A stretch of 46,508 nt of DNA from the IMG/VR virus record IMGVR_UViG_3300042549_003140, positions 1-46,508 of that record. One strand, 5' to 3'. This document shows positions 27,104 through 46,508 of this stretch, piece after piece. The first letter of the stretch is position 1. Every line of letters begins with the position of its first letter. The notes under the pieces are model-generated. The model saw nothing but the letters and a program-made list of their open reading frames with translations, ran no database searches and was not told the DNA's origin. A program made the position numbers and the translations under genes. Source of the stretch: a virus.

Positions 27104-27503
27104 TCAGTACCCTTTGTTTCGCTTTGTCTGTTTTCAGAGACTTCAGTTTCTTGTTCAATGATCGAACAGTCTGTTCATGTTCAGTTACGTGAGTGGGATG
27201 CAGCACGGGGTACTGCTCTCCTGTCACGTACTGAACAGTCTTCATCAAGAACTCAGGAAAAGAGATCTGAGATCCGAGGCCCGAACGTTTGTACCATGCT
27301 CGCAACCGTCCTTCCACTTGGTTGCACTGACGGTGTATCACTCCCCGAACCAACCCCGAGTTGTGACAGTGATCCAGCACTGCCGCTTCCGAAGAGAGAT
27401 GAGTATTGCACAGTGCGCACCTCCCCCCTTGCTGCTCTAAGATCTTCCGTCGAGTAAACGGAAGATCCTTTGATCTGAGCTGTGAGACTTTGCAAGTACT
27501 CAT
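26886..27503 (-). CDS. Recombination endonuclease VII (Holliday-junction resolvase)
   Basis: 205 residues. CALCNTHLSSEAAVLDHCHNSG, then LVRGVIHRQCN is the zinc-dependent His-Me finger signature of T4 gp49-type endonuclease VII: two Cys pairs and a DHCH catalytic centre. These enzymes resolve branched DNA before packaging. The N-terminal 83 codons overlap the end of the nucleotidyltransferase-like gene out of frame and the C-terminal 72 codons overlap the exonuclease gene, so the start at 27503 is not certain, but the zinc motif is intact. Confidence 0.85.
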   Translation of the reverse strand: MSTCKVSQLRSKDLPFTRRKILEQQGGRCALCNTHLSSEAAVLDHCHNSGLVRGVIHRQCNQVEGRLRAWYKRSGLGSQISFPEFLMKTVQYVTGEQYPVLHPTHVTEHEQTVRSLNKKLKSLKTDKAKQRVLNEIQKTKAIIEAERSTNQTAYQTQQDLILSRCISSTERCGNEVNSEQRVTEIPCDGTEYNEYTGCRPEGVTS

Positions 27504-28341
27504 GTAATGAGGTCTCTCCTTCTTCCAGTCTGATCAGATCAGCACTTGGAACTTGAATGAACGGGAACGGAAGACCCAAGATCTCCTTTGTAACCGGGAC
27601 ACCGAGTGAGTTATTTTTCTTGATAACACGGATCGCTGGTCTGTACCGAAGACGAGTAACGTCTGTGGTGAATGACGTACCCATGCGTTCCCAGTACGCA
27701 GATCGAACGTCCGGCATAGGTCCGTACCCTGTTGTTAGGATACGAACGCCACCTCTGCTACGGCGGAGCAATAACTTCCGAAGCACCTTCTGATCGTACA
27801 CAGCGTTACCTGATTGTACTCCGAGGTCTACCGATGCGGAGAACCGCAGCAAACAAACCTTACCAAGCACTTTGAAGTACGCGAAGTGACTCATCGAGTG
27901 CGGGTAGTGTTGAAGCACACTCAGCGCTAGTGCACTTCTTGGAGCAGAAGCAGAACATACAGACGGTTTCACAACCATGATGTTCACCTTCGTGATCGCT
28001 TTCCGAATCACAGCAAAACCTTCGTAGATCACCGTTAAGTAATCGTTCGCTGTGTACGAACCGTCAGGCTGAGCACCACCGCCTTCACTCCATAGTTCAC
28101 GGAACTCAGTGATGTTCAGTACACGGATAAGTGTCTCTACCTCTTGGAGAGATCGAACGTAGATATCCACATCAGCAGCAGCGACATCATCGAAGTGATC
28201 ACGAGGACAGCCTCCGAGGACAACACCTTTTGTGTGTTCCATCACAGCTAACACAACCTTCAGTTGTTGGTTCACTGCCTTGTGGTTCTCAGCTGACCCC
28301 GGGTTTGTCAGCATTTCTAGAGTTGGGGTAGTATCCATCAT
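27253..28341 (-). CDS. Nucleotidyltransferase-like protein
   Basis: 362 residues from the second ATG pair, which has AAGGA five bases upstream. Early in the protein VVLGGCPRDHFDDVAAADVDIYV has the GG-x-x-RD-x(n)-D-x-D layout of the polymerase-beta superfamily head of CCA-adding enzymes and poly(A) polymerases, with the paired metal-binding Asp residues (DVDIYV). The middle is mixed alpha/beta. The C-terminal 83 residues (Ser/Gly-rich) overlap the endonuclease VII frame. RNA or nucleotide modification is likely, but the substrate is unknown. Confidence 0.65.
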   Translation of the reverse strand: MMDTTPTLEMLTNPGSAENHKAVNQQLKVVLAVMEHTKGVVLGGCPRDHFDDVAAADVDIYVRSLQEVETLIRVLNITEFRELWSEGGGAQPDGSYTANDYLTVIYEGFAVIRKAITKVNIMVVKPSVCSASAPRSALALSVLQHYPHSMSHFAYFKVLGKVCLLRFSASVDLGVQSGNAVYDQKVLRKLLLRRSRGGVRILTTGYGPMPDVRSAYWERMGTSFTTDVTRLRYRPAIRVIKKNNSLGVPVTKEILGLPFPFIQVPSADLIRLEEGETSLHEYLQSLTAQIKGSSVYSTEDLRAARGEVRTVQYSSLFGSGSAGSLSQLGVGSGSDTPSVQPSGRTVASMVQTFGPRISDLFS

Positions 28342-29095
28342 AAAATTCCTTATCAAGAGTAGGGATAACAGGTGAGTGATCGTCGTACAGCTCACGCACC
28401 ATCCAAGCTAACGTTGCTTGTTCTAAGAACCGTTGTTCAGTATCGTGGAAATAATACCCACGGTACGCATCAAGCACAGCATCGAACATATCACCTGCTG
28501 TCTCGCAGGAGGTGAGGATGTTCATTGCTTTCACAGGGCCACATCCGGGGAGTCCGGGGTAGTTATCTGTGGTGTCACCAGTAAGTACCTGAGAGAAGAA
28601 GCAGTACGCATGGTACCAGTTCTTCATGTTCTCGTACAGGTACTCGGCTTGCTTCCCGACCTTGTAAGAAAAGATCCGGCCGGGGACTTGCTTCAGGTCT
28701 TTGTCTCGTGTAACACAGATACACATCGGGTTCCTGTGCATCACCATAGCACAAGCATCATCAGCTTCGTATCCGTCTACAATCACAGCGTTGTAATTCA
28801 GCACGAGGTACTGTCTGATTTGCTTGTACCAGTGTGGACGAGGGGCCGTACGGTTCCCTTTGTACGGCTTCGTTGTACCAACCTGATGTCTGAAGTTCCC
28901 TGTTCCTGTGAGGAAACCTTCGTACGTTCCACCATTAAGCTTCTGCATGATCTCCGTGAAGCGTGTATCAATCAGGTCAGTGCAGTACGAGAACGGCATC
29001 AGCGTGCCGTCCTTTCCCTGTGCTGCGAACCCGATGTCATAACACCAGAGGTCGAAGTCAAAAACTATATGGTTCGGTTCATCACCAGTCATCAT
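28289..29095 (-). CDS. 5'-3' exonuclease (FEN/T7 gp6-like)
   Basis: 268 residues from the ATG pair near 29095; longer starts up to 29152 are possible, but the domain begins at HIVFDFDLWCY. The acidic residues of the 5' nuclease fold are visible: VFDFD, GYEADDACAMV, CVTRDKDLKQVPG and the H3TH region GDTTDNYPGLPGCGPVKAMNIL. T7-like phages use such enzymes to remove RNA primers and degrade host DNA. It overlaps the SSB gene and the nucleotidyltransferase gene. Confidence 0.87.
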   Translation of the reverse strand: MMTGDEPNHIVFDFDLWCYDIGFAAQGKDGTLMPFSYCTDLIDTRFTEIMQKLNGGTYEGFLTGTGNFRHQVGTTKPYKGNRTAPRPHWYKQIRQYLVLNYNAVIVDGYEADDACAMVMHRNPMCICVTRDKDLKQVPGRIFSYKVGKQAEYLYENMKNWYHAYCFFSQVLTGDTTDNYPGLPGCGPVKAMNILTSCETAGDMFDAVLDAYRGYYFHDTEQRFLEQATLAWMVRELYDDHSPVIPTLDKEFYDGYYPNSRNADKPGVS

Positions 29096-31958: not shown

Positions 31959-32498
31959 TCAGTCTGGACTTAACTGTTCCCGAATGAATTCAAGAATCCT
32001 TGGGTCTTGGTGAATCCTCGCCATCTGTCGTTCGTACGCTAATCGTTTCAGACCGATGATCTTGAACCGATCAGCAGCGTACAACGAAGGGGATACATCA
32101 GCGAGGATCAGAGACACATCCTTCTTCATGAGTTCAGGGAGGTCACGTACTAACTGCTCCATCCAAACCTGTGTCTCCAACGAGTCAGCTGTGTCTGGTT
32201 CCGATTCAATCACGAACTGTCCTCTGTAGTCTGAGTCACGGATCTTGATCAGATCATCCAGTGGATCAGAGAACCGACCCTCGTGGATGTACTTCACAAC
32301 ATCAAGTAACTTCAGCCACCAGAAACTAACGAGAGAGTACTTCGGATCGTATCTATGCCGTCGCTTCCAGATACTTAGGAACACCTCTTGTGCTAGGTCT
32401 TGACAATCTTCAGGGGAGTACCCCTTCTTGTGAAAGAAGTCACAGGTTCTTGCGAACCCGTTTTTGTACAGCGTTGTGTACTGTTCGTCACTGATCAT
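31959..32498 (-). CDS. ECF-type RNA polymerase sigma factor
   Basis: 179 residues from the ATG that overlaps the previous stop (ATGA), with AAGG upstream. FHKKGYSPEDCQDLAQEVFLSIWKRRHRYDPKYSLVSFWWLKLL is a clear sigma-70 region 2 (DLAQEVFLxxW, the core-binding and -10 recognition helices). The C-terminal 100 residues are helical (LPELMKKDVSLILAD; FKIIGLKRLAYERQ) and may hold a diverged region 4. It lies directly before the DNA polymerase gene. In phiEco32 a similar small sigma factor directs host polymerase to late promoters. Confidence 0.75.
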   Translation of the reverse strand: MISDEQYTTLYKNGFARTCDFFHKKGYSPEDCQDLAQEVFLSIWKRRHRYDPKYSLVSFWWLKLLDVVKYIHEGRFSDPLDDLIKIRDSDYRGQFVIESEPDTADSLETQVWMEQLVRDLPELMKKDVSLILADVSPSLYAADRFKIIGLKRLAYERQMARIHQDPRILEFIREQLSPD

Positions 32499-32701
32499 GC
32501 TGTGACCTTCAGCAAGTTCCATACCCACAACAGTAGGCCGAGAGTACCGAACACCACATCGAACACTGCCAGCTTAGGTACAGGTATGTTGTCGTCAATG
32601 CTTTTATGCCCCCAGTCTATCAGGGCGGAAGCACCAGAACGTACAAGATACGTAGCCGCCAGAAGTACAACAGCTGACCAAATAATTTCCAATACAGACA
32701 T
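32495..32701 (-). CDS. Small two-helix membrane protein
   Basis: 68 residues from the ATG preceded by GGAGG (8-base spacing). Two transmembrane segments (about 4-22, LEIIWSAVVLLAATYLV; about 44-64, LAVFDVVFGTLGLLLWVWNLL) are joined by a short polar loop containing DWGHKSIDD. This is the size and topology of a class II holin, but it lies in the replication operon between the primase-helicase and a sigma factor. Membrane attachment of the replisome or superinfection exclusion are alternatives. Confidence 0.55.
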   Translation of the reverse strand: MSVLEIIWSAVVLLAATYLVRSGASALIDWGHKSIDDNIPVPKLAVFDVVFGTLGLLLWVWNLLKVTA

Positions 32702-32838
32702 CAATCGTTCCTCCAACTCATCACGATACCACGACAGTACATCCAAGGGTCAGTTACCTCTTGGAACTTCTTGCCATCTAACACAGCACCATTAGCGAAC
32801 TGGAACCGCAGATCTTTTATTGCATCGTAATCAATCAA
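32701..32838 (-). CDS. 45-residue protein after the primase-helicase
   Basis: Starts at TTG with GGGAG seven bases upstream, four bases inside the primase-helicase stop region, and ends in a TGATG overlap with the membrane protein gene. The product reads MIDYDAIKDLRFQFANGAV, then DGKKFQEVTDPWMYCRGIV, with no known motif. Tight coupling on both sides makes translation likely. It is below usual length cut-offs and easily missed. Confidence 0.6.
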   Translation of the reverse strand: MIDYDAIKDLRFQFANGAVLDGKKFQEVTDPWMYCRGIVMSWRND

Positions 32839-33023
32839 TCGTCATCTCCCATATTGATATCAATAGGATCAAGTGTACCTGTACGTTGATCGTACTGGAG
32901 CTTGATACGTCTGGACTCACCGAACATCCGGTCTTCCAGTAACACAAGGTCACGTCTGTTCCGTTCTAGCGGATCAAGGTCAGGGTCTTTGTTCCCTTCC
33001 AAGCCCCACATCTGGTGGCAAAA
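32835..33023 (-). CDS. Primase-helicase exon 3 (C-terminus)
   Basis: 62 codons after the predicted splice site. FCHQMWGLEGNKDPDLDP, then ERNRRDLVLLEDR and SRRIKLQYDQRTGTLDPID reads like the end of T7 gp4 helicases. The exon ends in an acidic tail (NMGDDD), the part of gp4 that docks the polymerase. A GTG at 33026 would allow independent translation of a 63-residue peptide, but splicing of exon 2 to 33023 restores the full frame exactly. Confidence 0.8.
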   Translation of the reverse strand, partial: FCHQMWGLEGNKDPDLDPLERNRRDLVLLEDRMFGESRRIKLQYDQRTGTLDPIDINMGDDD

Positions 33024-33813
33024 CACTTAGTTAACTTCCATGTGTCCCATATTACTACGGGTATCGGACTATATCACGCTGCATAGCAGCCCTACCTTTT
33101 CGGGGCAACTCCTGTCACCCCTACTCTACTCCCTTCCAGCTACGCTGTGGTTTCGATAGTCTCTGCACGTTGATTACGATACTTAGTTTTCTTATCCCAG
33201 TTGTAGTGTTTGCTTATGTGTGTCCATGTTCTTCGTGCTCTGATGTTAAGAGCCGTTCCACGAGATACATTAAAAGCTTTCACCACATCCCCAGTTGTGT
33301 AACCGTATACATACATCCCACAAATAATACCGACAGCTTCGTCTGTTAACTCAGCGTTCCAATGGTCAGAACCCTTAGCCATCAGACCAAGTTCTTTTGC
33401 ATGTCGTTTGTTGTGAATGTCTGTGCACCACTCAAGATTACTAACGTGGTTATTCGTCTTGTCCCCATCTCTGTGATTAACAAACGGTAACTCGGACGGG
33501 TTATCAATCCAAGTGAGAGCCACCGCCCTGTGGACAGGGATGTGTTTATAACTCCCGTTGATCTTGCAAGAGAACCGGTAGTAACCATAGGCGTCTTTGT
33601 TTGTGCCTATGAATTTGTCGGTTATCTGTGACAGGATCTTACCAGAGTCACTCACTAAGTACTGAGTATTTAAAGGGAATGGTTTGTACATGATGCTGTT
33701 TCCTTGTAGTTGGCATAACAAGGATAGAGCGCATCACTAAGTATTGCAACCCTTCGCTCAGGATTGCCCGCTTGGGGTTTCCCTGAATTAGATAGGTTTT
33801 ACATGCGCCTTTG
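33024..33813 (-). ncRNA. Group I intron 2 in the primase-helicase gene
   Basis: 790 nt. The 5' exon ends ATGCGT, which pairs with the internal guide GCGCAT to form P1 with the expected U-G wobble. The P/Q core (33755-33785, containing GGGCAATCCTGAGC as in trnL-type introns), R (33154-33168, GTGCAGAGACTATCG) and S (33061-33077, GATATAGTCC) are all present, and the intron ends in G. The HNH ORF lies in the P6 region and runs into R. Splicing joins exons 2 and 3 in frame. Confidence 0.88.
33140..33691 (-). CDS. HNH homing endonuclease with NUMOD4 motif (intron 2)
   Basis: 183 residues from the ATG preceded by AGGA. The NUMOD4 part (FPLNTQYLVSDSGKILS) is followed by the HNH nuclease (VHRAVALTWIDNP...FVNHRDGDKTNNHVSNLEW). 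A C-terminal helix-turn-helix (TTGDVVKAFNVSRGTALNIRARR) probably binds DNA. Such enzymes cut intronless alleles and spread the intron. Its last codons contain the R element of the intron core, so coding and ribozyme sequence overlap. Confidence 0.9.
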   Translation of the reverse strand: MYKPFPLNTQYLVSDSGKILSQITDKFIGTNKDAYGYYRFSCKINGSYKHIPVHRAVALTWIDNPSELPFVNHRDGDKTNNHVSNLEWCTDIHNKRHAKELGLMAKGSDHWNAELTDEAVGIICGMYVYGYTTGDVVKAFNVSRGTALNIRARRTWTHISKHYNWDKKTKYRNQRAETIETTA

Positions 33814-34326
33814 ACGCATCATAGCACGGGAACCAGAGAACTGCACTGACTGTACCTTACCACCACGTTCGTGGGCAGGCCCACCTTGCGGTGCATTCAA
33901 GTGGCAGAAGATATAACCAGTGAAGTCTAACTCGTTCGCCATAGCAGCGAACTCGGAAGCTATGCTGATCAGTGTCTCGTTCTGCTCGGTGAGTGACATC
34001 CCTACTGTGAAGCAAGTGAGAGGATCAAGGAACACGTCCTTGCACCCAGCTACCAACACAGCAGATCGGATCTCTTGCTTCACGATAGTCCAATCAACAC
34101 CTTGGTACCCATCGTACAAGATCACCTTGTCACCTATGGCTGCCTTCCCTGCTTCGAACTGCTCAGGTGGGAACTCGATCTTCGGGTCCCAGAACACAGC
34201 ACGTACAGCCTTACCAGCTAACCGCTTCAGTGTACCACCCATCGGTTCCTCTGGCTTACAGAGGTACACCGGTGTGTCCTGTGTTGTAGCACAGAACGAG
34301 GCGATCTGATCAACGAGCACAGACTT
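33814..34326 (-). CDS. Primase-helicase exon 2 (helicase core)
   Basis: 171 codons between the two predicted splice sites. It begins KSVLVDQIASFC, the second half of Walker A, and includes VYLCKPEEP (motif 1a), KVILYDGYQG, VFLDPLTCFT (Walker B), YIFCHLNAPQGG (motif 3) and ends FSGSRAMMR, the start of motif 4. The open reading frame extends upstream to 34419 through intron sequence only. Order and spacing match the RecA-like helicase of T7 gp4. Confidence 0.87.
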
Positions 34327-35076
34327 CGATTTGTTCGACAGTGGTCGCAACCCACTGCCCGTTCTCTTATGAACTGCTGCATGTTCCCATGCAGTCCAGA
34401 CTATATCATCACCTCTCACGAGGGCTATGCGCTTCCATCACCATTGGCTTGTGATGTACTCCCTTGCGGGATAGTCGTTGCACCTTCCTTTGATATACGG
34501 TGCTTAGTACAAGCAACTGCGTTGTAAGTCACACCAACAGTCTCTGCTATCTCTCGATAACAAACACCAGATTGGATTAACTTAATACACAATTGTTTTT
34601 GTTCAGGGGTCATCTCTACTTTTCTTTTCATGTCACGCAACCCAGTATCTAAAGCGTGCTTTAAATTCTTTTCGTGAGTTGTCCATTCCAGATTGGCAGA
34701 TGTGTTGTTGTCTTTGTTCCCGTCTATGTGGTTCAGTATTGAATTACCTTCCACAGCTGGAACGAAATGTTCTGCCACTAACCTGTGTACAAACACACGG
34801 CTAGGTATCCCATCCCTACAAAGTGTTACTCGTGAATACCCTGTGCTGTTCTTGTCAACAAGCAACACATTACCACGAGCACCAACAACATACCCTTGAT
34901 CGGATACCTTATACTTCGGGTATCCCTTAACTTGTACTAGCATTTTATTTCCCCTTGTTATGACCTACAGTTCATATTACTGCATATGACAAGGGGAAGT
35001 GTATCAAAAGCTTGGCTCAGGATTGTCCGGTCTGGAGTTTCCCTGAGTTCACATAGTTTTACATGGGCTGCACTGA
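34327..35076 (-). ncRNA. Group I intron 1 in the primase-helicase gene
   Basis: 750 nt. The 5' exon ends ATGGGT, pairing with guide GCCCAT (P1, U-G wobble at the splice site). The P/Q core (35010-35045, GGGAAACTCC then GACAATCCTGAGCC), R (34470-34484, GGTGCAACGACTATC) and S (34394-34410, GATATAGTCTGGAC) are present, a P9-like hairpin follows, and the intron ends in G. The intron interrupts the Walker A sequence between Gly and Lys, and splicing restores MGKS in frame. Only four GTAC sites occur in it, far fewer than in flanking genes, consistent with later acquisition. Confidence 0.9.
34425..34943 (-). CDS. HNH homing endonuclease with NUMOD4 motif (intron 1)
   Basis: 172 residues; AAGGGG lies seven bases before the ATG. 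KGYPKYKVSDQGYVVG (NUMOD4-like) is followed by the HNH motif (VHRLVAEHFVPAV...ILNHIDGNKDNNTSANLEW) and a C-terminal HTH (CYREIAETVGVTYNAVACTKHRI). It is a distant relative of the intron 2 enzyme, with the same domain order. The ORF is placed in the P6 region and its 3' end contains the R element of the ribozyme. Confidence 0.9.
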   Translation of the reverse strand: MLVQVKGYPKYKVSDQGYVVGARGNVLLVDKNSTGYSRVTLCRDGIPSRVFVHRLVAEHFVPAVEGNSILNHIDGNKDNNTSANLEWTTHEKNLKHALDTGLRDMKRKVEMTPEQKQLCIKLIQSGVCYREIAETVGVTYNAVACTKHRISKEGATTIPQGSTSQANGDGSA

Positions 35077-36036
35077 ACCCATCTTAACACCAGCACCGAA
35101 GTAATACACTTCTTTCCTGCGACGACCACGAGTAACCTCTGTCATCTCAGGCCAAGGCCAAGGCAGACCTTCTTGTACTACCTCTGTAGCTAAGTGCCAG
35201 ATCTCAGAAGATCGGTACGACATCGCGGAGATCTTCGCAGCTGTCTCGTACATCACAGCTTTGAATAGCTCATCATCACGACCAGCGATCACCATGTCGT
35301 TCGCATCCTTCAATGGAAGCGTAGCTACATGCACACCGGGGAGCAGCTTGGATACTGCCTGTACTGCCGATCGACCGGGGTCATCGTTATCGAACACGAG
35401 CACCACCTTCTTGAACATCCGTTGGATATCCTTGATGTGGTGGTCAACATCACGAGTAGCACCCTTACAACCAGAGCGGAGGGAGATCACAGATGGATTA
35501 CCTGACCCGTTCCACTTCCGCTTCAGCACAGAGAACAACGCTATCGCATCGTCCTCTCCCTCTGTGATGAACAGTGTGTACTTATCACCGTACCGCATTG
35601 CCTGTTGCCAGCCGAACATATCACAGCCACGGGTACTACCTACACTGAACATCTGCTTTGTGTTCGTCTTACATTTATAGCCTTTGAGTTCTGTCTTCGT
35701 GTAGTACGGATAGAACCGAGAGACAGGAGTTACCCCGTCGAACTCGGATAACCCTACTCGTACCCCGAAGTACTCCAGTGCTCTACGAGACAGCTTCCGT
35801 TCAGGGATCTCGTGAGCAACCATCTCTGTGATCTCTTTGATCTCAGCAGCTATTTCATCAGGTGTTTTGATTGTCATTGTACGGGTCGGGGGTGCTTGTC
35901 CCTCACCGTACGGATGCTTCTCATATGTACCACAACGGAAACAATACCCGTCGTACTCACCATCATCCCGCAAGAACACTTGGAGGGAGCGAGTCCCTCC
36001 GCATGAGTGCGGTAGCTTCTCTACACAAGTGCTCAT
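35077..36036 (-). CDS. Primase-helicase exon 1 (primase domain)
   Basis: 320 codons; ATG overlaps the ATP-grasp stop with GGAGG before it. An N-terminal zinc-binding part (His10, Cys12, Cys32, Cys35) reads template trinucleotides. The TOPRIM domain has FITEGEDDAIAL (Glu159) and VLVFDNDDPGRSA (Asp216, Asp218). The helicase begins near the end, where FGAGVKMG is the first half of Walker A. Five more codons of intron follow in frame before a stop, so an unspliced message gives only a primase fragment. Joined to exons 2 and 3 it makes 553 residues, close to T7 gp4. Confidence 0.9.
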
Positions 36037-36920
36037 ACACCTCCTTCGTCAGTCTCTAGCTCTGTACCTTCCATCTCTAATTCCGAGTACGGACGCCAAG
36101 AGATTGTCTCCCCCGCCATGAATCGGAAGAACTCAACGTACCGTTCTAGGGTTGTCCCCTCCATCCCCGGAGAGGTGTTCACTTCAAGAACATAACACCT
36201 CGCTCTGTTAATCGGACCGCCCTTTTCGACAACGATATCCACAGCACCGAACTGAAGACCAAGATCGTCCACTGCCTGTTGTGCACGAGAGATCAGCTCG
36301 TTTGGAATTGTTCGTGCACAGATCCCGTTACGGACAAAGATAAAATCGTTATCATGATTCCAGATGAACGGACGATTTGTATCATCAACACCGGGGCGAC
36401 GGATCTTACGAGTGACGTCGATCACCCGCCATACACCATCTATCCTGCCGACATGAACTCGGTACTCACGACGCTTTTCAATAGCCTGTGTGTACAGTGC
36501 AGCTCGTGGGACACCACGACCAGCTCGTGCTTGCTCTGGTGTTACCACTACGATCCCTGCACCTGAACTGCCACGGTCTAGGGTACGGGCAACAACGGTC
36601 TTACCATCAACAAGACAAGCGTAGTTCGCATCTCGCGCGTCCGTCCAGTGAGGTGGGAGGGCAGCTGTACGTACTCGTTGGAACGTACGAAGCTTAGACT
36701 GTGCGTGATACACAGCTAACGGGGAGTTCACCAAGTTGTTCGCAGTACGCAACCGGTGGAAGCCCTCCGATTCTGTACCGATCCCGAGGTTGATCACATG
36801 AGTAACAGACCGTGGGATCGGGGATGTTGAATCTTTCTTCATTAACTTGCAGTCTAATGCTTCTGCAAGAGCACGGGCAGCTGTACCGTTGTTCCAACTA
36901 GCGATCAAGAACTTAGCCAT
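36033..36920 (-). CDS. RimK-like ATP-grasp ligase
   Basis: 295 residues from the ATG overlapping the previous stop (TAATG). An N-terminal Rossmann-like part ends at CKLMKKD. The ATP-grasp core includes VVARTLDRGSSGAGIVVV (the glycine-rich loop), TQAIEKRREYRVHVG, FGAVDIVVE and the metal-binding VLEVNTSPGMEGTTLERYVEF. ATP-grasp enzymes of this type couple a carboxylate to an amine through an acyl-phosphate. Next to two amidoligases it probably extends or attaches a peptide-like product. It is the last gene before the primase. Confidence 0.85.
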   Translation of the reverse strand: MAKFLIASWNNGTAARALAEALDCKLMKKDSTSPIPRSVTHVINLGIGTESEGFHRLRTANNLVNSPLAVYHAQSKLRTFQRVRTAALPPHWTDARDANYACLVDGKTVVARTLDRGSSGAGIVVVTPEQARAGRGVPRAALYTQAIEKRREYRVHVGRIDGVWRVIDVTRKIRRPGVDDTNRPFIWNHDNDFIFVRNGICARTIPNELISRAQQAVDDLGLQFGAVDIVVEKGGPINRARCYVLEVNTSPGMEGTTLERYVEFFRFMAGETISWRPYSELEMEGTELETDEGGV

Positions 36921-37999
36921 TACACACCCCACTGCTGTTTGATTTGAATAATGATATCCGCTGCTGTCACTGGGTCTGTGTTCGCACACAGTTCATTGAA
37001 CAGCTCACCCATACGAGCACGGGCAGAGTACTCTTGTAAGAACGAGTCACTACCAACAGAGTCAAGGAACGCTGGGAGAGTGCCCTCAGTCTGTGCCTTA
37101 ACAAGTGGTTGCCAGAACGAACCACGTACAACACGGAACGGTGCTGCTTCTGGGAATAACTGCTGGTGAATGCCTAGCAATTGGTCAACTGTACTGATCT
37201 CTCGTGTGATGTCGTTAGCCATCTCGATACCCTTCTCAATTAAATCACATAACTCAGTAATAGAAACTGTCTTACGCATTGCAAGCAGTTGATCTGTTAA
37301 TAACACACGAACACCATCTTGTACCTTGCGATCCTTGAGTTGCGACACGGTGTTCGTCATTGCTAACTCACGGATAGAGTTCAGGATCTGAACCCAACCA
37401 AGTAACTTCACCCCATCCTTACAGCCGGGGAACATACGGAACTCTATTGTACCGTACTCGAACAGACGGAACGCACCAACAGCGCAGTACTTCGGTACGT
37501 GGGACGTGAGCACTTGCTGCACAGCACCACGACGTTTGTTCTTGATATCACTAAGTAACTTGTTCCAGAACTGGATCAGGTTCACAGAGTTATACACAGG
37601 AACAGTGTACGTGTTATGGTTCCGAAGATCGGAGCAGTACCGTAGGAGCACAGGCTCCAGTGCTACACTCAGCCACACCATACTGCGGAACTGTTCTTCG
37701 TTCATGTCTTGTACATTCACATGGATGTGTGTACTACAGCGGGGGGATAACGATATCCGACGACCACGACAGAACTGTGTGTACGAAGAGCTAGCCTGCT
37801 GCACTTGATCAAGGGTCAACGGTACTGACACAAGCTCAATCCCGTTACGGAGGGAGCCATCGGTTGTCTTCCTGAAGTACTGATTCAGGGTTCCGATGTC
37901 TGCCTCTGCGATACCATCCCCTTCGATCTCTAACTCGATACCGAACATCGCACCAGAGTACCGTGCTCTGTCTTCTCTAAACCACCCGAATACTGACAT
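36920..37999 (-). CDS. Amidoligase (Amidoligase_2-type, glutamine-synthetase fold)
   Basis: 359 residues from the ATG with GGAG six bases upstream. MFGIELEIEG carries the paired Glu residues of the COOH-NH2 ligase fold, STHIHVNVQDM is the HxHV metal/ATP motif, and FEYGTIEFRMFPG the later EFR motif. These match the predicted Amidoligase_2 group, which forms amide bonds with ATP. The C-terminal 100 residues are helical. It overlaps the 170-residue gene upstream by 23 bases and touches the ATP-grasp gene. Substrates are unknown. Confidence 0.8.
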   Translation of the reverse strand: MSVFGWFREDRARYSGAMFGIELEIEGDGIAEADIGTLNQYFRKTTDGSLRNGIELVSVPLTLDQVQQASSSYTQFCRGRRISLSPRCSTHIHVNVQDMNEEQFRSMVWLSVALEPVLLRYCSDLRNHNTYTVPVYNSVNLIQFWNKLLSDIKNKRRGAVQQVLTSHVPKYCAVGAFRLFEYGTIEFRMFPGCKDGVKLLGWVQILNSIRELAMTNTVSQLKDRKVQDGVRVLLTDQLLAMRKTVSITELCDLIEKGIEMANDITREISTVDQLLGIHQQLFPEAAPFRVVRGSFWQPLVKAQTEGTLPAFLDSVGSDSFLQEYSARARMGELFNELCANTDPVTAADIIIQIKQQWGV

Positions 38000-38489
38000 C
38001 TTGTTCTCCAATTGAATCGAATAACTTAACCAATCGGTCAGCCACATCTGATGATCGAACGTACCAGATCTCTCCTTGGATGACCCCAACAGGGAATCCG
38101 TTCATGTACACGATCTTCACACCACGATGGTCTGATACGAACACAGACCAACTGTACCGCCGAGTGGTACGAGGGGACTCCCCTCGAAGGATCTTGTACA
38201 GATCAGGCAACTCGCTTGGGTCGTACTCCATCCCACGTTTGGTTGATCGCCGAACATTTAACCCGATGTACGCTCCCCGAGTTGTGTAAAACGCTGGGAA
38301 GATATGGGTGAACAGTTCATTGTACGGAACAATTGTTGTGCTGAAGTCAGTACCGTTGTACTTATGGATCGTGACGGAAAGGTCTTGAGCTATTGACATG
38401 AACACAGCAGGGCAATTCTCATGGATAACAACAGTGCCTTGGTAGTACGCACTCGCATCCCTCACAGAACAACTGATCAAAGGAATCAT
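37977..38489 (-). CDS. Unknown protein inside the amidoligase cluster
   Basis: 170 residues, beta-rich, with no membrane segment. A C-terminal part (RGVKIVYMNGFPVGVIQGEIWYV) looks like a small beta-hairpin domain; RRSTKRGMEYDPSELPDLYKI precedes it. I do not recognise the family. It overlaps the ligase genes on both sides (4 and 23 bases), so it is surely part of the same pathway, perhaps as a carrier, an accessory subunit or the target of modification. Confidence 0.65.
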   Translation of the reverse strand: MIPLISCSVRDASAYYQGTVVIHENCPAVFMSIAQDLSVTIHKYNGTDFSTTIVPYNELFTHIFPAFYTTRGAYIGLNVRRSTKRGMEYDPSELPDLYKILRGESPRTTRRYSWSVFVSDHRGVKIVYMNGFPVGVIQGEIWYVRSSDVADRLVKLFDSIGEQDVSIRVV

Positions 38490-39253
38490 GCTTCCCTCCC
38501 GATACGCTTCAGGTTGCTGACAGCAGAGGCACCGCTTGTGTACTCATGAGCGATCTCGAAGATCTCTGGTAGTTTCTCCAGACAACCGAGAAGTTTCTTG
38601 AGTTTCTCTTTGCTAGTGATCACCGTGCAGTCCATCATTCGGTACTCAATTCCGTACGGCTTGACACGGAACGCACCCTTACCACCGTACTGTGTAGCAC
38701 GTTGCCTTGTTGTGCTGAGGCCAGCTTCCTCGAACACTACATCAAGGGCTCGAACCAATCGACTCATGTCTTTGTACGTGAACACGTTCGATGGTTGGTC
38801 TTTGGTGAACCCGAGGTGGATATGGAAACCACTGTACCGACAGGTTTGGTTCGGTGCATCTGCTGTCTTGTACATACTATCCGAGTACGCATCGAACTCT
38901 GAACCACAACCGAACACTAAGTCTTCAGGCTGAGCACCAGTTACAGAAGCCACACGTACCTCTTCTGTGTACGCAATCGTTGTGCCTGTTGGTGTGAGGT
39001 ACAACTCTTGCACTTCACCAAGAACACGGAACAAGTTCTTAACCATACCAAGTGGGGTGTCTGCTGGTGGGGCACCTACCTCTAATGACAGGCCATCAGG
39101 GTGACACACACCGTACTGCAACTTATGTGGGTCAGTCTTCAGACCGGGGATCACACGAGCAGCTGCTATGAATCGGTCTTCTCTCTTCAAGAAGAACTCT
39201 GCATCCATCCCGATCAGGAGTTCTATCTGTTCGCCATTGAATTCAATCTTCAT
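38486..39253 (-). CDS. phiEco32-type COOH-NH2 ligase (type 2)
   Basis: 255 residues. IGMDAEFFLK, HPDGLSLEVGAPPAD, VFGCGSEFDAYSD, YSGFHIHLGFT and GAFRVKPYGIEYRMMD, in this order, are the signature blocks of the phiEco32-like COOH-NH2 ligase-type 2 family, a glutamine-synthetase-like fold predicted to make amide bonds. The acidic pair in DAEFF and the HIHLG motif should bind metal and ATP. Start and stop overlap the neighbours by four bases. Confidence 0.88.
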   Translation of the reverse strand: MKIEFNGEQIELLIGMDAEFFLKREDRFIAAARVIPGLKTDPHKLQYGVCHPDGLSLEVGAPPADTPLGMVKNLFRVLGEVQELYLTPTGTTIAYTEEVRVASVTGAQPEDLVFGCGSEFDAYSDSMYKTADAPNQTCRYSGFHIHLGFTKDQPSNVFTYKDMSRLVRALDVVFEEAGLSTTRQRATQYGGKGAFRVKPYGIEYRMMDCTVITSKEKLKKLLGCLEKLPEIFEIAHEYTSGASAVSNLKRIGREA

Positions 39254-40575
39254 TCAGGGATCTCTCCGAAGTTATATAATAATCCGACAGTGCTACAGAG
39301 GGTCTGCACGTTCACGTTCTTACCGTAGCAGGAACCACATACAAACGTGGCATCGTTTAACTGAGCACATTCAAGAACAGGTTGGTGTGTCTCACATACC
39401 TCACACATCACAGTGTCTACTTCAGGTACGTCACGCTTGTACTGTTCTTCCGTTGAATCGAACCCGCCGTTTTCCACGACGACGGGTAATGTCTTTTTTA
39501 CAGGAAGACGAACCTGTGTACTTGTTAGTGTGTACTCACCTGCACTCTTAGCGGCCTTGTTGTTAGCTACTGCGTACCATAACGTAGACAGGTACACTTC
39601 AACAGAATCAACCAGTGGTTCTTCTGTTCCGTACACGAGGATATCATTCCAAGGTTGTTGGTCTAACATCAAGGTCAAGGTACCACGACCAGAGTTCCCG
39701 TGCGAAGGGGTGAACTGCATCACAGTGGCAGGGTACCAACCCGGAACCATGTTCATTTCTTTTTTGAAATCATCCACGCCATTGCTGTACGCATCAGACT
39801 TCTTACCACTTGTTGTACCAGCCATCGTCCTCGAAGTATGCGGGGTTGTAATAGGATCTGGTTTCTTTTTTAATTCGACATTCTGCACACCCCGCTGGAG
39901 AACACCAGCCACAGTGGTGTACTTCCACAGCTGTCCAACAGGAAGGTTAAAGATATGAGTGGCAGGTACTACCTCCATCTTCTCCTTTGTTGCAGCAGCG
40001 TACAAGATCCCAGCTTCCGACGACAGGTACAACACAGTACCTGATGTGTTCTGCATCAACGTGAGAGGTCGCTCATCATTACGGATAAGGTTCCAACTGC
40101 TGTCTCGTGCATCGTACCACACCAAGGTGAACGCACCGTTCAGCGTGCTGATGAAAGCACCAGCCTCAGATGGTTCAATCAGGCTGAGGTTGTACGCAAT
40201 ACTCTCACTATCTGTGTCGAACAAGTGACTGTTCGGTGGCATCGGATGTGTGAGTGTGCCGTTGTGTACCAAGGAGATCGGTCCGTGCTCGAACGGGTGA
40301 GCGTTGTTCACACTTACAGAACCCTTGGTTGCATGTCTGTTATGACCAACCAGTGCACGGACTGCACCTGCTAGGATCGGAGCGACACGACGGTGCTCCA
40401 AGAAATCCGTAGGGTTCGTGATACTCTTAGCACAGGTGATCTTACCACCAGTTTCTGAGATCAACCCAACGGAATCCTTACCACGGATCACGTCCATTTG
40501 TAACATATGTTTGAAGATGTTCGTGTTACCGAACGTTAAAGCTGTTGAGCCGATCACACCTACGATTCCACAAAT
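39250..40575 (-). CDS. Class II glutamine amidotransferase (AUU start)
   Basis: 441 residues if translation starts at ATT (40575), giving M-C-G-I-V-G, so the catalytic Cys becomes N-terminal after Met removal. The next start (GTG, 40557) would delete it. GGGG lies eight bases before the ATT, and a stop immediately precedes it in frame. The Ntn domain shows VGHNRHATKGSVSVNNAHPF, LVHNGTLTH and DTDSESIAYNL, as in asparagine synthetase and PurF. The C-terminal half ends in a Cys4 zinc finger (CEVCETH...CGSC). It should release ammonia from glutamine for an amidation step. Confidence 0.88.
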   Translation of the reverse strand: MCGIVGVIGSTALTFGNTNIFKHMLQMDVIRGKDSVGLISETGGKITCAKSITNPTDFLEHRRVAPILAGAVRALVGHNRHATKGSVSVNNAHPFEHGPISLVHNGTLTHPMPPNSHLFDTDSESIAYNLSLIEPSEAGAFISTLNGAFTLVWYDARDSSWNLIRNDERPLTLMQNTSGTVLYLSSEAGILYAAATKEKMEVVPATHIFNLPVGQLWKYTTVAGVLQRGVQNVELKKKPDPITTPHTSRTMAGTTSGKKSDAYSNGVDDFKKEMNMVPGWYPATVMQFTPSHGNSGRGTLTLMLDQQPWNDILVYGTEEPLVDSVEVYLSTLWYAVANNKAAKSAGEYTLTSTQVRLPVKKTLPVVVENGGFDSTEEQYKRDVPEVDTVMCEVCETHQPVLECAQLNDATFVCGSCYGKNVNVQTLCSTVGLLYNFGEIPE

Positions 40576-40589
40576 TTACTCATCCCCTT

Positions 40590-40607
40590 TGTGTTGATGT
40601 CAACACA
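40590..40607. promoter_or_regulatory. 18-bp palindrome upstream of the amidotransferase gene
   Basis: TGTGTTGA-TG-TCAACACA is a perfect 8-bp inverted repeat around two bases, 15 bp before the predicted ATT start. A TTGACA hexamer is embedded on the leftward strand without a matching -10. The centre is too short for a good RNA hairpin, so a dimeric repressor or activator site is more likely. A second inverted repeat, GCAGCA (40625-40630)/TGCTGC (40641-40646), lies in the same intergenic gap. Confidence 0.5.
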
Positions 40608-40680
40608 TATAATACCATTTAAACGCAGCAGGATCGTCCATGCTGCACGATGTACCACTAACCAGTGCTAGGGTACAGGG

Positions 40681-41052
40681 TTACATCTCGCCTCGTCTGA
40701 ACAGCACCCAGTCACCGGACTGTACCTTCTCGTAGTTCGATAGGTTCTTACCAACGATGAAGTAAATCCATGCCTGCCCCTTACTGGTCTGGATTAACTT
40801 CCGATCATAGAACGAAGGATAACCTTCCAGTCGATCTAACCGTAACATCGTAGCATGACCTACCTTGTACAGTTCAATTCGGATCTCACCCTGTGCTGGT
40901 GTGATGAACGGGAATCCACCCATGCTGTACATATCGAACCCACTCACCCGCTCTGTCCCTAAGAACGTAACCTCATCAGACTGAAGCAGTCCGTGGTTCC
41001 CCATGCCCTTTCGTAAAGATCCGTACACTGCGACTAAGAATTCTTGTTCCAT
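40681..41052 (-). CDS. Gamma-glutamylcyclotransferase-like (AIG2/BtrG-like) protein
   Basis: 123 residues from the ATG overlapping the previous stop (TAATG). FLVAVYGSLRKGMGNHGLL is the YGSL-x-x-G-x-x-x-xxL signature that forms the binding loop in this family. GGFPFITPAQGEIRIELYKV and LDRLEGYPSFYDRKLI (with the catalytic Glu of LEGY) follow the family pattern. These enzymes release an amine or 5-oxoproline from gamma-glutamyl groups. It precedes the amidoligase genes, which suggests that it trims a gamma-glutamyl protecting group in the same pathway. Confidence 0.85.
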   Translation of the reverse strand: MEQEFLVAVYGSLRKGMGNHGLLQSDEVTFLGTERVSGFDMYSMGGFPFITPAQGEIRIELYKVGHATMLRLDRLEGYPSFYDRKLIQTSKGQAWIYFIVGKNLSNYEKVQSGDWVLFRRGEM

Positions 41053-41888
41053 TACATACTCCATAAACTTTTCATGAACGCCTTCAGATCTACACAACCA
41101 ACAAGTGTGTACTTCCCGAACAAACCATTGATCACCCGTGGTTTTGTGTGCTCCTTGCAGATCTTCTGCACGTACTTCCTCGTTAGGTACGGCTCTTCTG
41201 GACCTGTGACCCACATCGCACGGATGTTCATGCAGTACCCTTGCAGATCTCGGACACTGCGATGAAGCAGTACCATCTCAGAGAAAGGATCTTCACTGTG
41301 GATCAGACTCTTTCTGATGTTCGATGTGAAGAACACAGAGTCACCGCCTTCGCAGTACGTAACGGAGACATCGCCACGACCGATGGCAGGGAACATCTTC
41401 GCTGTTATCAAAGCCATCCACTTACTCTTAGCGAACGGTACCAACGCACAGAACGATGTGTTCAGATCATCGCTGTGTGCTATGCTACGAAGGAAGAACA
41501 AGCATGCCATCGTGATCTCACTCGGGATACCATGAGCGATCACGTTCACCATGTTCTGAGAGTACACCTTGCTGTACGGTTCATCGAAGCACACACGGTA
41601 CGGTGACTCTTCGATCAAGTACTGCATGATCTCTTTGTTCCGAACGTGGAACAGCGACTCGAACCCATCCGATAACCGGATATGGGTAACAGGCTTGCTG
41701 TACAAACCTTTCGTGTGGTCGTTCTGGTAGTCTGATCTGCCAGATAAACCGTGCTTCTCGTTGAACATCTTCCATTCAGCACGGTGCTCTGTTGTTACAC
41801 CGTACGAATCACTTCTCCCACAGCTACCGAAGCAGCCCATAGATTGTTCTCGGACGGTACCGTCCTCATAAACATGGAATACAATCAT
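41052..41888 (-). CDS. Unknown protein leading the amidoligase operon
   Basis: 278 residues with no known motif, no signal peptide and no membrane helix. Notable are a Gly/Cys-rich N-terminus (MGCFGSCGRSDSYG) and a mixed alpha/beta body (VCFDEPYSKVYSQNMVNVIAHGIPS). The N-terminal Cys-rich loop could bind a metal. AAGGT lies five bases before the ATG. It overlaps the cyclotransferase start, so it belongs to the same transcript and may be a pathway enzyme or a modified substrate protein. Confidence 0.6.
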   Translation of the reverse strand: MIVFHVYEDGTVREQSMGCFGSCGRSDSYGVTTEHRAEWKMFNEKHGLSGRSDYQNDHTKGLYSKPVTHIRLSDGFESLFHVRNKEIMQYLIEESPYRVCFDEPYSKVYSQNMVNVIAHGIPSEITMACLFFLRSIAHSDDLNTSFCALVPFAKSKWMALITAKMFPAIGRGDVSVTYCEGGDSVFFTSNIRKSLIHSEDPFSEMVLLHRSVRDLQGYCMNIRAMWVTGPEEPYLTRKYVQKICKEHTKPRVINGLFGKYTLVGCVDLKAFMKSLWSM

Positions 41889-41966: not shown

Positions 41967-42479
41967 CTACTTATTAACTATCTTAAGTATCCTAGATAGT
42001 ATCTTGTTGTACCTTGACTCAATACTCTGACGAGACACAGCGTACATATCACCGATCTCTTCTGTACTGAATCCCATTAGCGTTAGCACTAACAGATCCT
42101 GTTGTGGCACTGTTAGTTCTGCTTGTTTCACAGCCTGTATTAAAGCGTACCGTTGTACACAGTACGTAACACAGTACTCTTCGTACGCCTCCCAAGGATC
42201 GAAGGCATCAACACCTTCAACCTGAGAGGTACTCATACCACGCTGATCGTACACCGATACCCACAGCGATTGTCTCTTGCGTTCTTGCCGCTTGCTGTAC
42301 CACTGAGAGAACATCAAACTGAACGCACCCAATGGGTTCCCTTCGCCGTTCCAGTACGTTAAGAACTGTACCCATGTATCATGGTACCTGTCCTCGAAGT
42401 CTGGATCTGACGGGTACCAGTTGTACTTCGTTGCGATGTACTGCTTCGTCCTCTCGTAGTTCAGCGGGCTAGAACTCAT
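41967..42479 (-). CDS. Second sigma-factor-like protein (ECF type)
   Basis: 170 residues; GGGAG lies seven bases before the ATG. The N-terminal half (YHDTWVQFLTYWNGEGNPLGAFSLMFSQWYSKRQERKR) resembles sigma region 2. The C-terminal part is a textbook region 4 HTH: LTVPQQDLLVLTLMGFSTEEIGDMYAVSRQSIESRYNKIL, in the pattern of ECF sigma factors (LxxxxxxxLxLxxxGxSxxEIAxxLxxSxxSVxSR). It is expressed earlier than the sigma factor at 31959 and directly precedes the amidoligase operon, so it may switch on middle genes. Confidence 0.72.
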   Translation of the reverse strand: MSSSPLNYERTKQYIATKYNWYPSDPDFEDRYHDTWVQFLTYWNGEGNPLGAFSLMFSQWYSKRQERKRQSLWVSVYDQRGMSTSQVEGVDAFDPWEAYEEYCVTYCVQRYALIQAVKQAELTVPQQDLLVLTLMGFSTEEIGDMYAVSRQSIESRYNKILSRILKIVNK

Positions 42480-46243: not shown

Positions 46244-46398
46244 TGTGTCGCAAATAACAGACAGTATTTGTACCACGATTAGGGAACATCATACAAAACA
46301 ACAACTTAGAGTGTCGCTATTCAGAGACACTGATTTACCGATAACACACACAACACTGATAAACAAAGGGCTGGACACTGTATCTGAATTGCGACACT
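46244..46398. repeat. Three copies of a 21-bp motif, one inverted
   Basis: Copies at 46244-46264 (+) and 46310-46330 (+) and an inverted one at 46378-46398 (-) share the core GTGTCGC, then A/T-ATTCAGA or a close variant, then ACA. The 46310 and 46378 copies agree at 18 of 21 positions; the 46244 copy agrees with the 46378 copy at 16. Short TGTCGC words also occur elsewhere in the region. Regulator binding or replication control are possible. Confidence 0.55.
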
Positions 46399-46508
46399 AG
46401 CAATAACGGGTACAAAACAGGGGTAATAGGTAATAAGGTAATAGTCTTTGACTACTACACAATAACAGTGCTGGCAACTCTTTTTTGCCCCGAAGGGGCG
46501 TACCCCTT
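46382..46508. repeat. Terminal direct repeat, right copy
   Basis: Exact copy of bases 1-127. If the molecule is circular in the assembly, one copy should be removed, giving a unique length of 46381 bases. The left boundary of this copy overlaps the inverted member of a 21-bp motif pair (46378-46398), so the repeat edge does not coincide with an obvious functional boundary. Confidence 0.95.

Follow-up and report, generated by a model that had tools for sequence, protein, structure and literature searches.

The DNA stretch analysed here (the window) comprises positions 1 to 46,508 of the IMG/VR virus record IMGVR_UViG_3300042549_003140, a marine-type phage contig of 46,508 bases with kinship to the genus Melvirus (Zobellviridae). 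Seven tightly packed genes on its minus strand (41888-36033) form a cassette that encodes, in order of transcription, an uncharacterised protein (p278), a gamma-glutamyl cyclotransferase (GGCT), a class II glutamine amidotransferase, a phiEco32-type COOH-NH2 ligase, a second uncharacterised protein (p170), an Amidoligase_2 ligase, and a RimK-like ATP-grasp ligase. An earlier reading of the window from its letters alone (the sequence-only reading) had proposed these genes, their order, and their enzyme classes, and Pfam, PHROG, and profile matches agree with it (Table 1). Since a 127-bp direct terminal repeat is present (1-127 and 46382-46508), the contig looks complete and is probably a whole genome.

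Layout, enzyme signatures, and distribution of the cassette

Neighbouring genes of the cassette overlap by 1-4 nt, with 23 nt shared by p170 and Amidoligase_2, in keeping with the expectation of translational coupling; the sole gap, of 105 nt, lies upstream of the amidotransferase. The primase start at 36036 overlaps the ATP-grasp stop, such that the cassette adjoins the replication block. As the gene order of the window is repeated in five further loci (L002, L003, L007, L009, and L010), chance clustering can be excluded.

Table 1. Features of the cassette in the window, in order of transcription
Feature	Coordinates	Strand	Basis
p278, uncharacterised, 278 aa	41052..41888	-	ORF, start check, family alignment; invariant CFG-type Cys19 and Arg134
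GGCT (AIG2/YtfP-like), 123 aa; corrected start ATG 41052	40681..41052	-	PF06094 3e-22; motifs
Amidotransferase leader, 105 nt; 7-bp stem and Shine-Dalgarno AAAGGGG	40576..40680	-	Sequence, folding
Class II glutamine amidotransferase, 441 aa; AUU start	39250..40575	-	GATase_6 2e-10; phrog_4736 1e-56
phiEco32-type COOH-NH2 ligase (glutamine-synthetase-like), 255 aa	38486..39253	-	PF14395 3e-5; phrog_3815 3e-37; motifs
p170, uncharacterised, 170 aa; between the two glutamine-synthetase-like ligases	37977..38489	-	Family presence; AF2 model
Amidoligase_2 (glutamine-synthetase-like ligase), 359 aa; corrected start ATG 37999	36920..37999	-	PF12224 5e-7; phrog_7469 1e-33; motifs
RimK-like ATP-grasp ligase, 295 aa; corrected start ATG 36920	36033..36920	-	phrog_2599 9e-58; RimK profile match; motifs

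Both glutamine-synthetase-like (GS-like) ligases retain invariant motifs in alignments with distant phages, and their profiles have a common block, YG-(I)E-[YF]-R. Against PF14395, the COOH-NH2 ligase scores 23.8 bits, just short of the curated cut-off of 25, with the invariant motif residues present, while Amidoligase_2 scores 30.3 bits against PF12224 (cut-off 22) and carries the pattern ExE, D/E, HxH, ExR; patterns of this kind are reminiscent of the residues with which glutamine synthetase binds metal and nucleotide. For all three ligases, it is the PHROG scores (Table 1) that decide the assignment. The ATP-grasp protein has no Pfam match; its family profile matches RimK structures (1e-10), the E-x-N metal motif is present as LEVNTSPG, and its motifs are invariant across distant phages. 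The same invariance is seen for the GGCT motifs YGSL and LDRLEGY (the latter with the catalytic Glu of LDxLEG), and among PDB structures the family profile picks up YtfP and AIG2-like/gamma-glutamylamine cyclotransferase entries. The motifs that the sequence-only reading saw in the translations are thus borne out, with catalytic residues intact and conserved in the alignments; residue loss, named there as grounds for refutation, was not seen.

Searching viral contigs with the ATP-grasp profile gave at least 507 relatives, and 80 loci were kept for comparison. The full core (amidotransferase, COOH-NH2 ligase, p170, Amidoligase_2, and ATP-grasp ligase) occurs together in 72 loci. The sequence-only reading had also held a small T7-like genome to be an unusual setting, which is not sustained: a T7-type primase/helicase lies near the cassette in 67 of the 82 loci examined, and RIO-1, PSA-HP1, LUZ24, PaP3, PA11, and CW02 are among the phages listed for the system (PMC5498523). 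Small podovirus genomes are the normal home of the cassette. A scan of cellular genomes returned, for the most part, contigs assembled from metagenomes; several of them carry the same cassette, and these are taken to be phage.

Of the two uncharacterised proteins, p170 is present in every locus carrying both GS-like ligases (72/72), and it lies between them wherever the locus was mapped. Family members of p278 were found by iterated search in 39 loci, a number limited by incomplete flanks, and share an invariant Cys and Arg. The window versions have no Pfam or PHROG match of their own, and neither alignment has an evident conserved C-terminus. For p170, the AlphaFold2 (AF2) model is beta-rich and of fair confidence (mean predicted local distance difference test score, pLDDT, 84.7). 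A PDB fold search with it gave nothing at E<=0.001, the best insignificant matches including several small SH3/PWWP/Tudor-like barrels; at the same threshold, every match in a viral fold library was to a phage protein that is uncharacterised or carries no name, those of CW02 and RIO-1 among them. Three p170 relatives match SspH (3e-5). The p278 model is poor (pLDDT 65), and nothing in the PDB matched its fold at E<=0.001. For both proteins, the role of substrate or carrier suggested in the sequence-only reading is a candidate one.

The amidotransferase and its start codon

Class II amidotransferases require a Cys directly after the initiator Met. In the window, the amidotransferase frame runs from a TAA directly into ATT-TGT-GGA, and initiation at the listed GTG (40557) would lose the catalytic Cys; ATT 40575 must therefore be the start, and a Shine-Dalgarno-like AAAGGGG lies 8 nt upstream of it. 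The other residues that mark the class (a conserved Arg, His-Asn-Gly, and Asp) are present as well: Cys-Gly follows the AUU start, and the sequence has HNR, HPF, HNG, and DTDSE, with catalytic residues invariant in alignment with distant phages. A -1 frameshift from ATG 40583 into the amidotransferase frame was considered and ruled out, as the Cys would then be buried and relatives have theirs right after the start.

Among 67 anchored amidotransferase starts (a count that includes a few duplicate records, among them the window, counted also as L001), there are 51 ATG, 7 ATT, 5 TTG, 3 ATC, and 1 CTG. Starts other than ATG, GTG, or TTG were found within the same search window for 10 of 68 amidotransferase genes vs. 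5 of 156 control genes (those for GGCT, the ATP-grasp ligase, and peptidase C26, a gamma-glutamyl hydrolase discussed below). This excess has a Fisher p of 0.003, or of 4e-6 if all 5 control cases count as errors, most of them having implausible-looking alignment starts; the COOH-NH2 ligase, with its poorly anchored N-terminus, gave no usable control. Mapped on a quick tree, the AUU/AUC/CUG label changes 9 times, with at least 5 changes forced by well-supported branches, and from these comparisons such starts appear to have arisen by repeated independent changes.

Initiation factor 3 (IF3) in Escherichia coli discriminates against start codons of the AUU/AUC/CUG type. As the amidotransferase is the one gene of the cassette to have both a leader to itself and a weak start codon, AUU, we consider it a reasonable inference that synthesis of the ammonia source is weak or gated, with ammonia supply probably being low or gated in turn. 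The leader of the window folds somewhat better than its shuffles (z -2.5), whereas those of three relatives do not. A perfect 7-bp stem lies just upstream of the Shine-Dalgarno sequence, with different stems at the equivalent place in L006 and L007. In public annotations, the amidotransferases of L006 (5208-5223) and L012 (5136-5214) begin past the catalytic Cys, the true start being ATT or ATC. Since the annotated start drops this residue in at least two relatives, proteins as currently annotated, and constructs built on them, would be inactive.

At its C-terminus, the amidotransferase has a CxxC...CxxC zinc-ribbon-like region. The idea that this region acts as a LysW-type carrier was rejected, as there is no conserved C-terminal Glu. 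Small acidic zinc-ribbon proteins (60-85 aa) recur in other loci (L020, L030, L053, L082, and many others), mostly within ~1.5 kb downstream of the ATP-grasp gene, and are absent from the window; their C-termini are not conserved, yet they are possible carrier candidates.

Probable gamma-glutamyl chemistry and possible acceptors

Two unrelated enzymes for the same type of bond replace each other in the cassette. Within the stretches sampled, the 72 full-core loci divide into 19 with GGCT only, 39 with peptidase C26 only, 11 with both, and 3 with neither, these last all having short flanks. The C26 proteins match PF07722 at 1e-16 or better as well as E. coli PuuD, and keep the Cys and His-Pro-Glu in the sequences inspected. 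On the tree, switching between GGCT and C26 takes 14 changes in all, and well-supported branches force C26 to have been gained or lost at least 6 times. Such exchange is good indirect evidence, and the best of its kind here, that a gamma-glutamyl bond is formed and cleaved in the pathway.

We thus favour, with about even confidence, an amide-bond assembly line of the protect-ligate-deprotect type. (i) The class II amidotransferase, with its catalytic residues in place, would free ammonia from glutamine and may deliver it to a partner ligase. (ii) The two GS-like ligases and the RimK-like ATP-grasp ligase would convert carboxylates into acyl phosphates and couple these to amines, with (iii) at least one ligase product bearing a gamma-glutamyl cap. 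(iv) This cap would then be cut by GGCT or, in other phages, by the C26 hydrolase that is seen in its stead. (v) Given the universal presence of p170 and the recurrence of p278, p170 and probably also p278 would be dedicated subunits that are not ligases themselves, their task being to hold either the acceptor or the complex of ligases. (vi) The cassette would be expressed along with the replication genes. (vii) The acceptor would be cytosolic, with an envelope precursor or a protein favoured over DNA. Cassette genes are expressed in relatives, as shown by PaP3 ORF48, placed in the middle class of transcripts at 10-30 min (PMC4707531) and identified by our sequence search as the COOH-NH2 ligase, and by particle preparations of SU10, in which the ATP-grasp enzyme, the amidotransferase, and the YtfP protein were detected (PMC4281155).

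Several points weigh against this scheme. The labels "GGCT only" and "C26 only" describe the sampled stretch and not the whole genome; both enzymes could have host glutathione or other gamma-glutamyl compounds as their substrates, with no tie to the ligases; and p170 and p278 could serve as subunits in some other process. Moreover, the GS-like ligase profiles find no glutamine synthetase structure in the PDB, the one match, a weak one, being to an entry named H12; nor does the profile of Amidoligase_2 match PuuA significantly. A more elaborate version, in which a viral system for peptide tagging or for synthesis on a carrier has p170 and p278 as its dedicated carriers or acceptors and, in addition, an IF3-sensitive AUU/AUC start meters the ammonia source and has been repeatedly selected on this gene, we regard as rather unlikely.

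As to the acceptor, GGCT chemistry requires a free alpha-amine on the gamma-glutamyl group, which the D-Glu of the peptidoglycan stem does not have; direct action of GGCT on the stem is thus disfavoured. This bears on the proposal that the cassette changes the peptide side chains of host peptidoglycan such that further phages are excluded (superinfection exclusion), which is compatible with protect-deprotect chemistry and concerns only its acceptor. A peptidoglycan role has been put forward for RIO-1, PSA-HP1, and phiEco32 (PMC5498523, PMC10580990), the named phage hosts in our searches are Gram-negative bacteria with similar peptidoglycan, and the cassette enzymes look cytosolic, as are muropeptide precursors. 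However, no experiment on such modification or exclusion was found in the open papers searched, the cited role of GGCT as a peptidoglycan-degrading enzyme is doubtful on the above chemical grounds, and the PaP3 member is a middle rather than an early gene. We consider this acceptor plausible but less likely than not.

Tentatively, and with less confidence, the ligases could instead tag a protein of the host or phage by adding amino acids or short gamma-linked peptides, e.g., through RimK-like addition to a C-terminus, with p170 or p278 as target or adaptor. The profile proximity of the ATP-grasp enzyme to RimK, the obligatory presence of p170 between the ligases, and the cassette proteins in SU10 particle preparations would all fit, whereas neither p170 nor p278 shows evident conservation at its C-terminus. 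To our knowledge, no tagged protein has been described for the cassette.

Detoxification or use of host amines (e.g., polyamines) by gamma-glutamylation, after the manner of the PuuA and PuuD steps of E. coli, appears improbable. It would draw on the relatedness of C26 to PuuD and of GGCT to gamma-glutamylamine cyclotransferase, and some phages are reportedly inhibited by putrescine (cited in PMC11898732). Three ligases, p170, and an ammonia source nonetheless exceed the needs of such a pathway, the lack of a significant Amidoligase_2 match to PuuA speaks against it, and no gamma-Glu-putrescine oxidase or aldehyde dehydrogenase of the Puu type was recognised among the cassette genes, PuuB and PuuC being seen in the E. 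coli comparison. Less probable still is synthesis of a hypermodified base in phage DNA or modification of a nucleotide, which the recurrent position beside the primase/helicase (67/82 loci) might suggest: the ligases act on carboxylates, which unmodified DNA does not have, and no thymidylate-synthase-like, base-hydroxylating, or 7-deazaguanine genes were recognised among the window proteins scanned.

The comparison of loci yields points that can be tested, i.e., an expected gamma-glutamyl intermediate, p170 as an obligatory partner, and the amidotransferase start codon. With a cassette so common and strictly conserved in phages of Pseudomonas, Escherichia, Vibrio, Klebsiella, Rhizobium, and marine bacteria, its function represents a real gap.

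Genomic neighbourhood and known relatives

Beside the cassette, the primase/helicase gene is in three pieces (36036-35059, 34419-33799, and 33026-32835) that are separated by two HNH endonuclease genes. A match to a group I intron, below the threshold, lies in this region (34662-34377, E 5e-5), and 34334-34490 is ~80-91% identical to DNA of many other phages; the split (32835-36036) is probably due to two mobile introns. Two sigma-factor-like genes were also seen, one directly upstream of the cassette (41967-42479) and the other at 31959-32528, and 27253-28395 encodes a nucleotidyltransferase-like protein (phrog_1614, 8e-5). In phiEco32-like phages, a gene annotated as nucleotidyltransferase (of the CCA-adding class in SU10) lies near the cassette. 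PADLOC gave no match that would assign the cassette to anti-phage defence.

A seven-gene "peptidoglycan modification cassette" has been described as common to RIO-1, PSA-HP1, phiEco32, 7-11, PA11, tf, MR299-2, LUZ24, PaP3, and CW02 (PMC5498523); the hypothesis of surface change and superinfection exclusion is credited there to Hardies et al. 2013 and Iyer et al. The cassette of the window is a further, divergent example of this published system and is not new as a system. The chemistry was called untested in the sequence-only reading, in line with the hypothetical status of cassette function in the literature. Four points were not found in the open papers searched: p170 is universal, the p278 family is broad, GGCT and C26 are exchanged for each other, and AUU/AUC starts recur. 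The founding papers (Iyer 2009 and Hardies 2013) fell outside that search, and some of these points may be there.

Among cellular pathways, PuuA/PuuD of E. coli and BtrJ/BtrG of butirosin synthesis follow a similar logic, in which a gamma-glutamyl cap is added and then removed; C26 is related to PuuD, and the cassette GGCT is of the same AIG2 class as BtrG. These pathways differ in that no oxidase, dehydrogenase, or acyl carrier protein was recognised in the phage cassette, which has extra ligases and an ammonia source.

Among phages, LUZ24 and PaP3 (Bruynoghevirus) resemble the window in that both GS-like ligases flank a p170 homologue, with an amidotransferase, a RimK-like ligase, and GGCT also present, whereas their gene order is different and two p278-family proteins stand in tandem. 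In PA11, CW02, Klyazma, and CVT22 (Zobellviridae), the five core genes are ordered as in the window, but peptidase C26 is present, mostly replacing GGCT, and in Klyazma and CVT22 the p278-like domain lies within a longer protein. The kinship with the phiEco32 set proposed in the sequence-only reading is upheld, as phiEco32 and SU10 (Kuravirus) carry homologues of all seven families (p170 corresponding to phi32_85 at 2e-11, and p278 to phi32_87 at 1e-4); unlike in the window, the amidotransferase follows Amidoligase_2, GGCT lies several genes away, and the genome is ~77 kb. Finally, RIO-1 and PSA-HP1 (Melvirus, Zobellviridae) agree with the window in gene content, in gene order, and in the position beside the primase/helicase. 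The RIO-1 proteins are ~15-40% identical to those of the window, with an additional small gene before p170 and an amidotransferase that starts with AUG instead of AUU.

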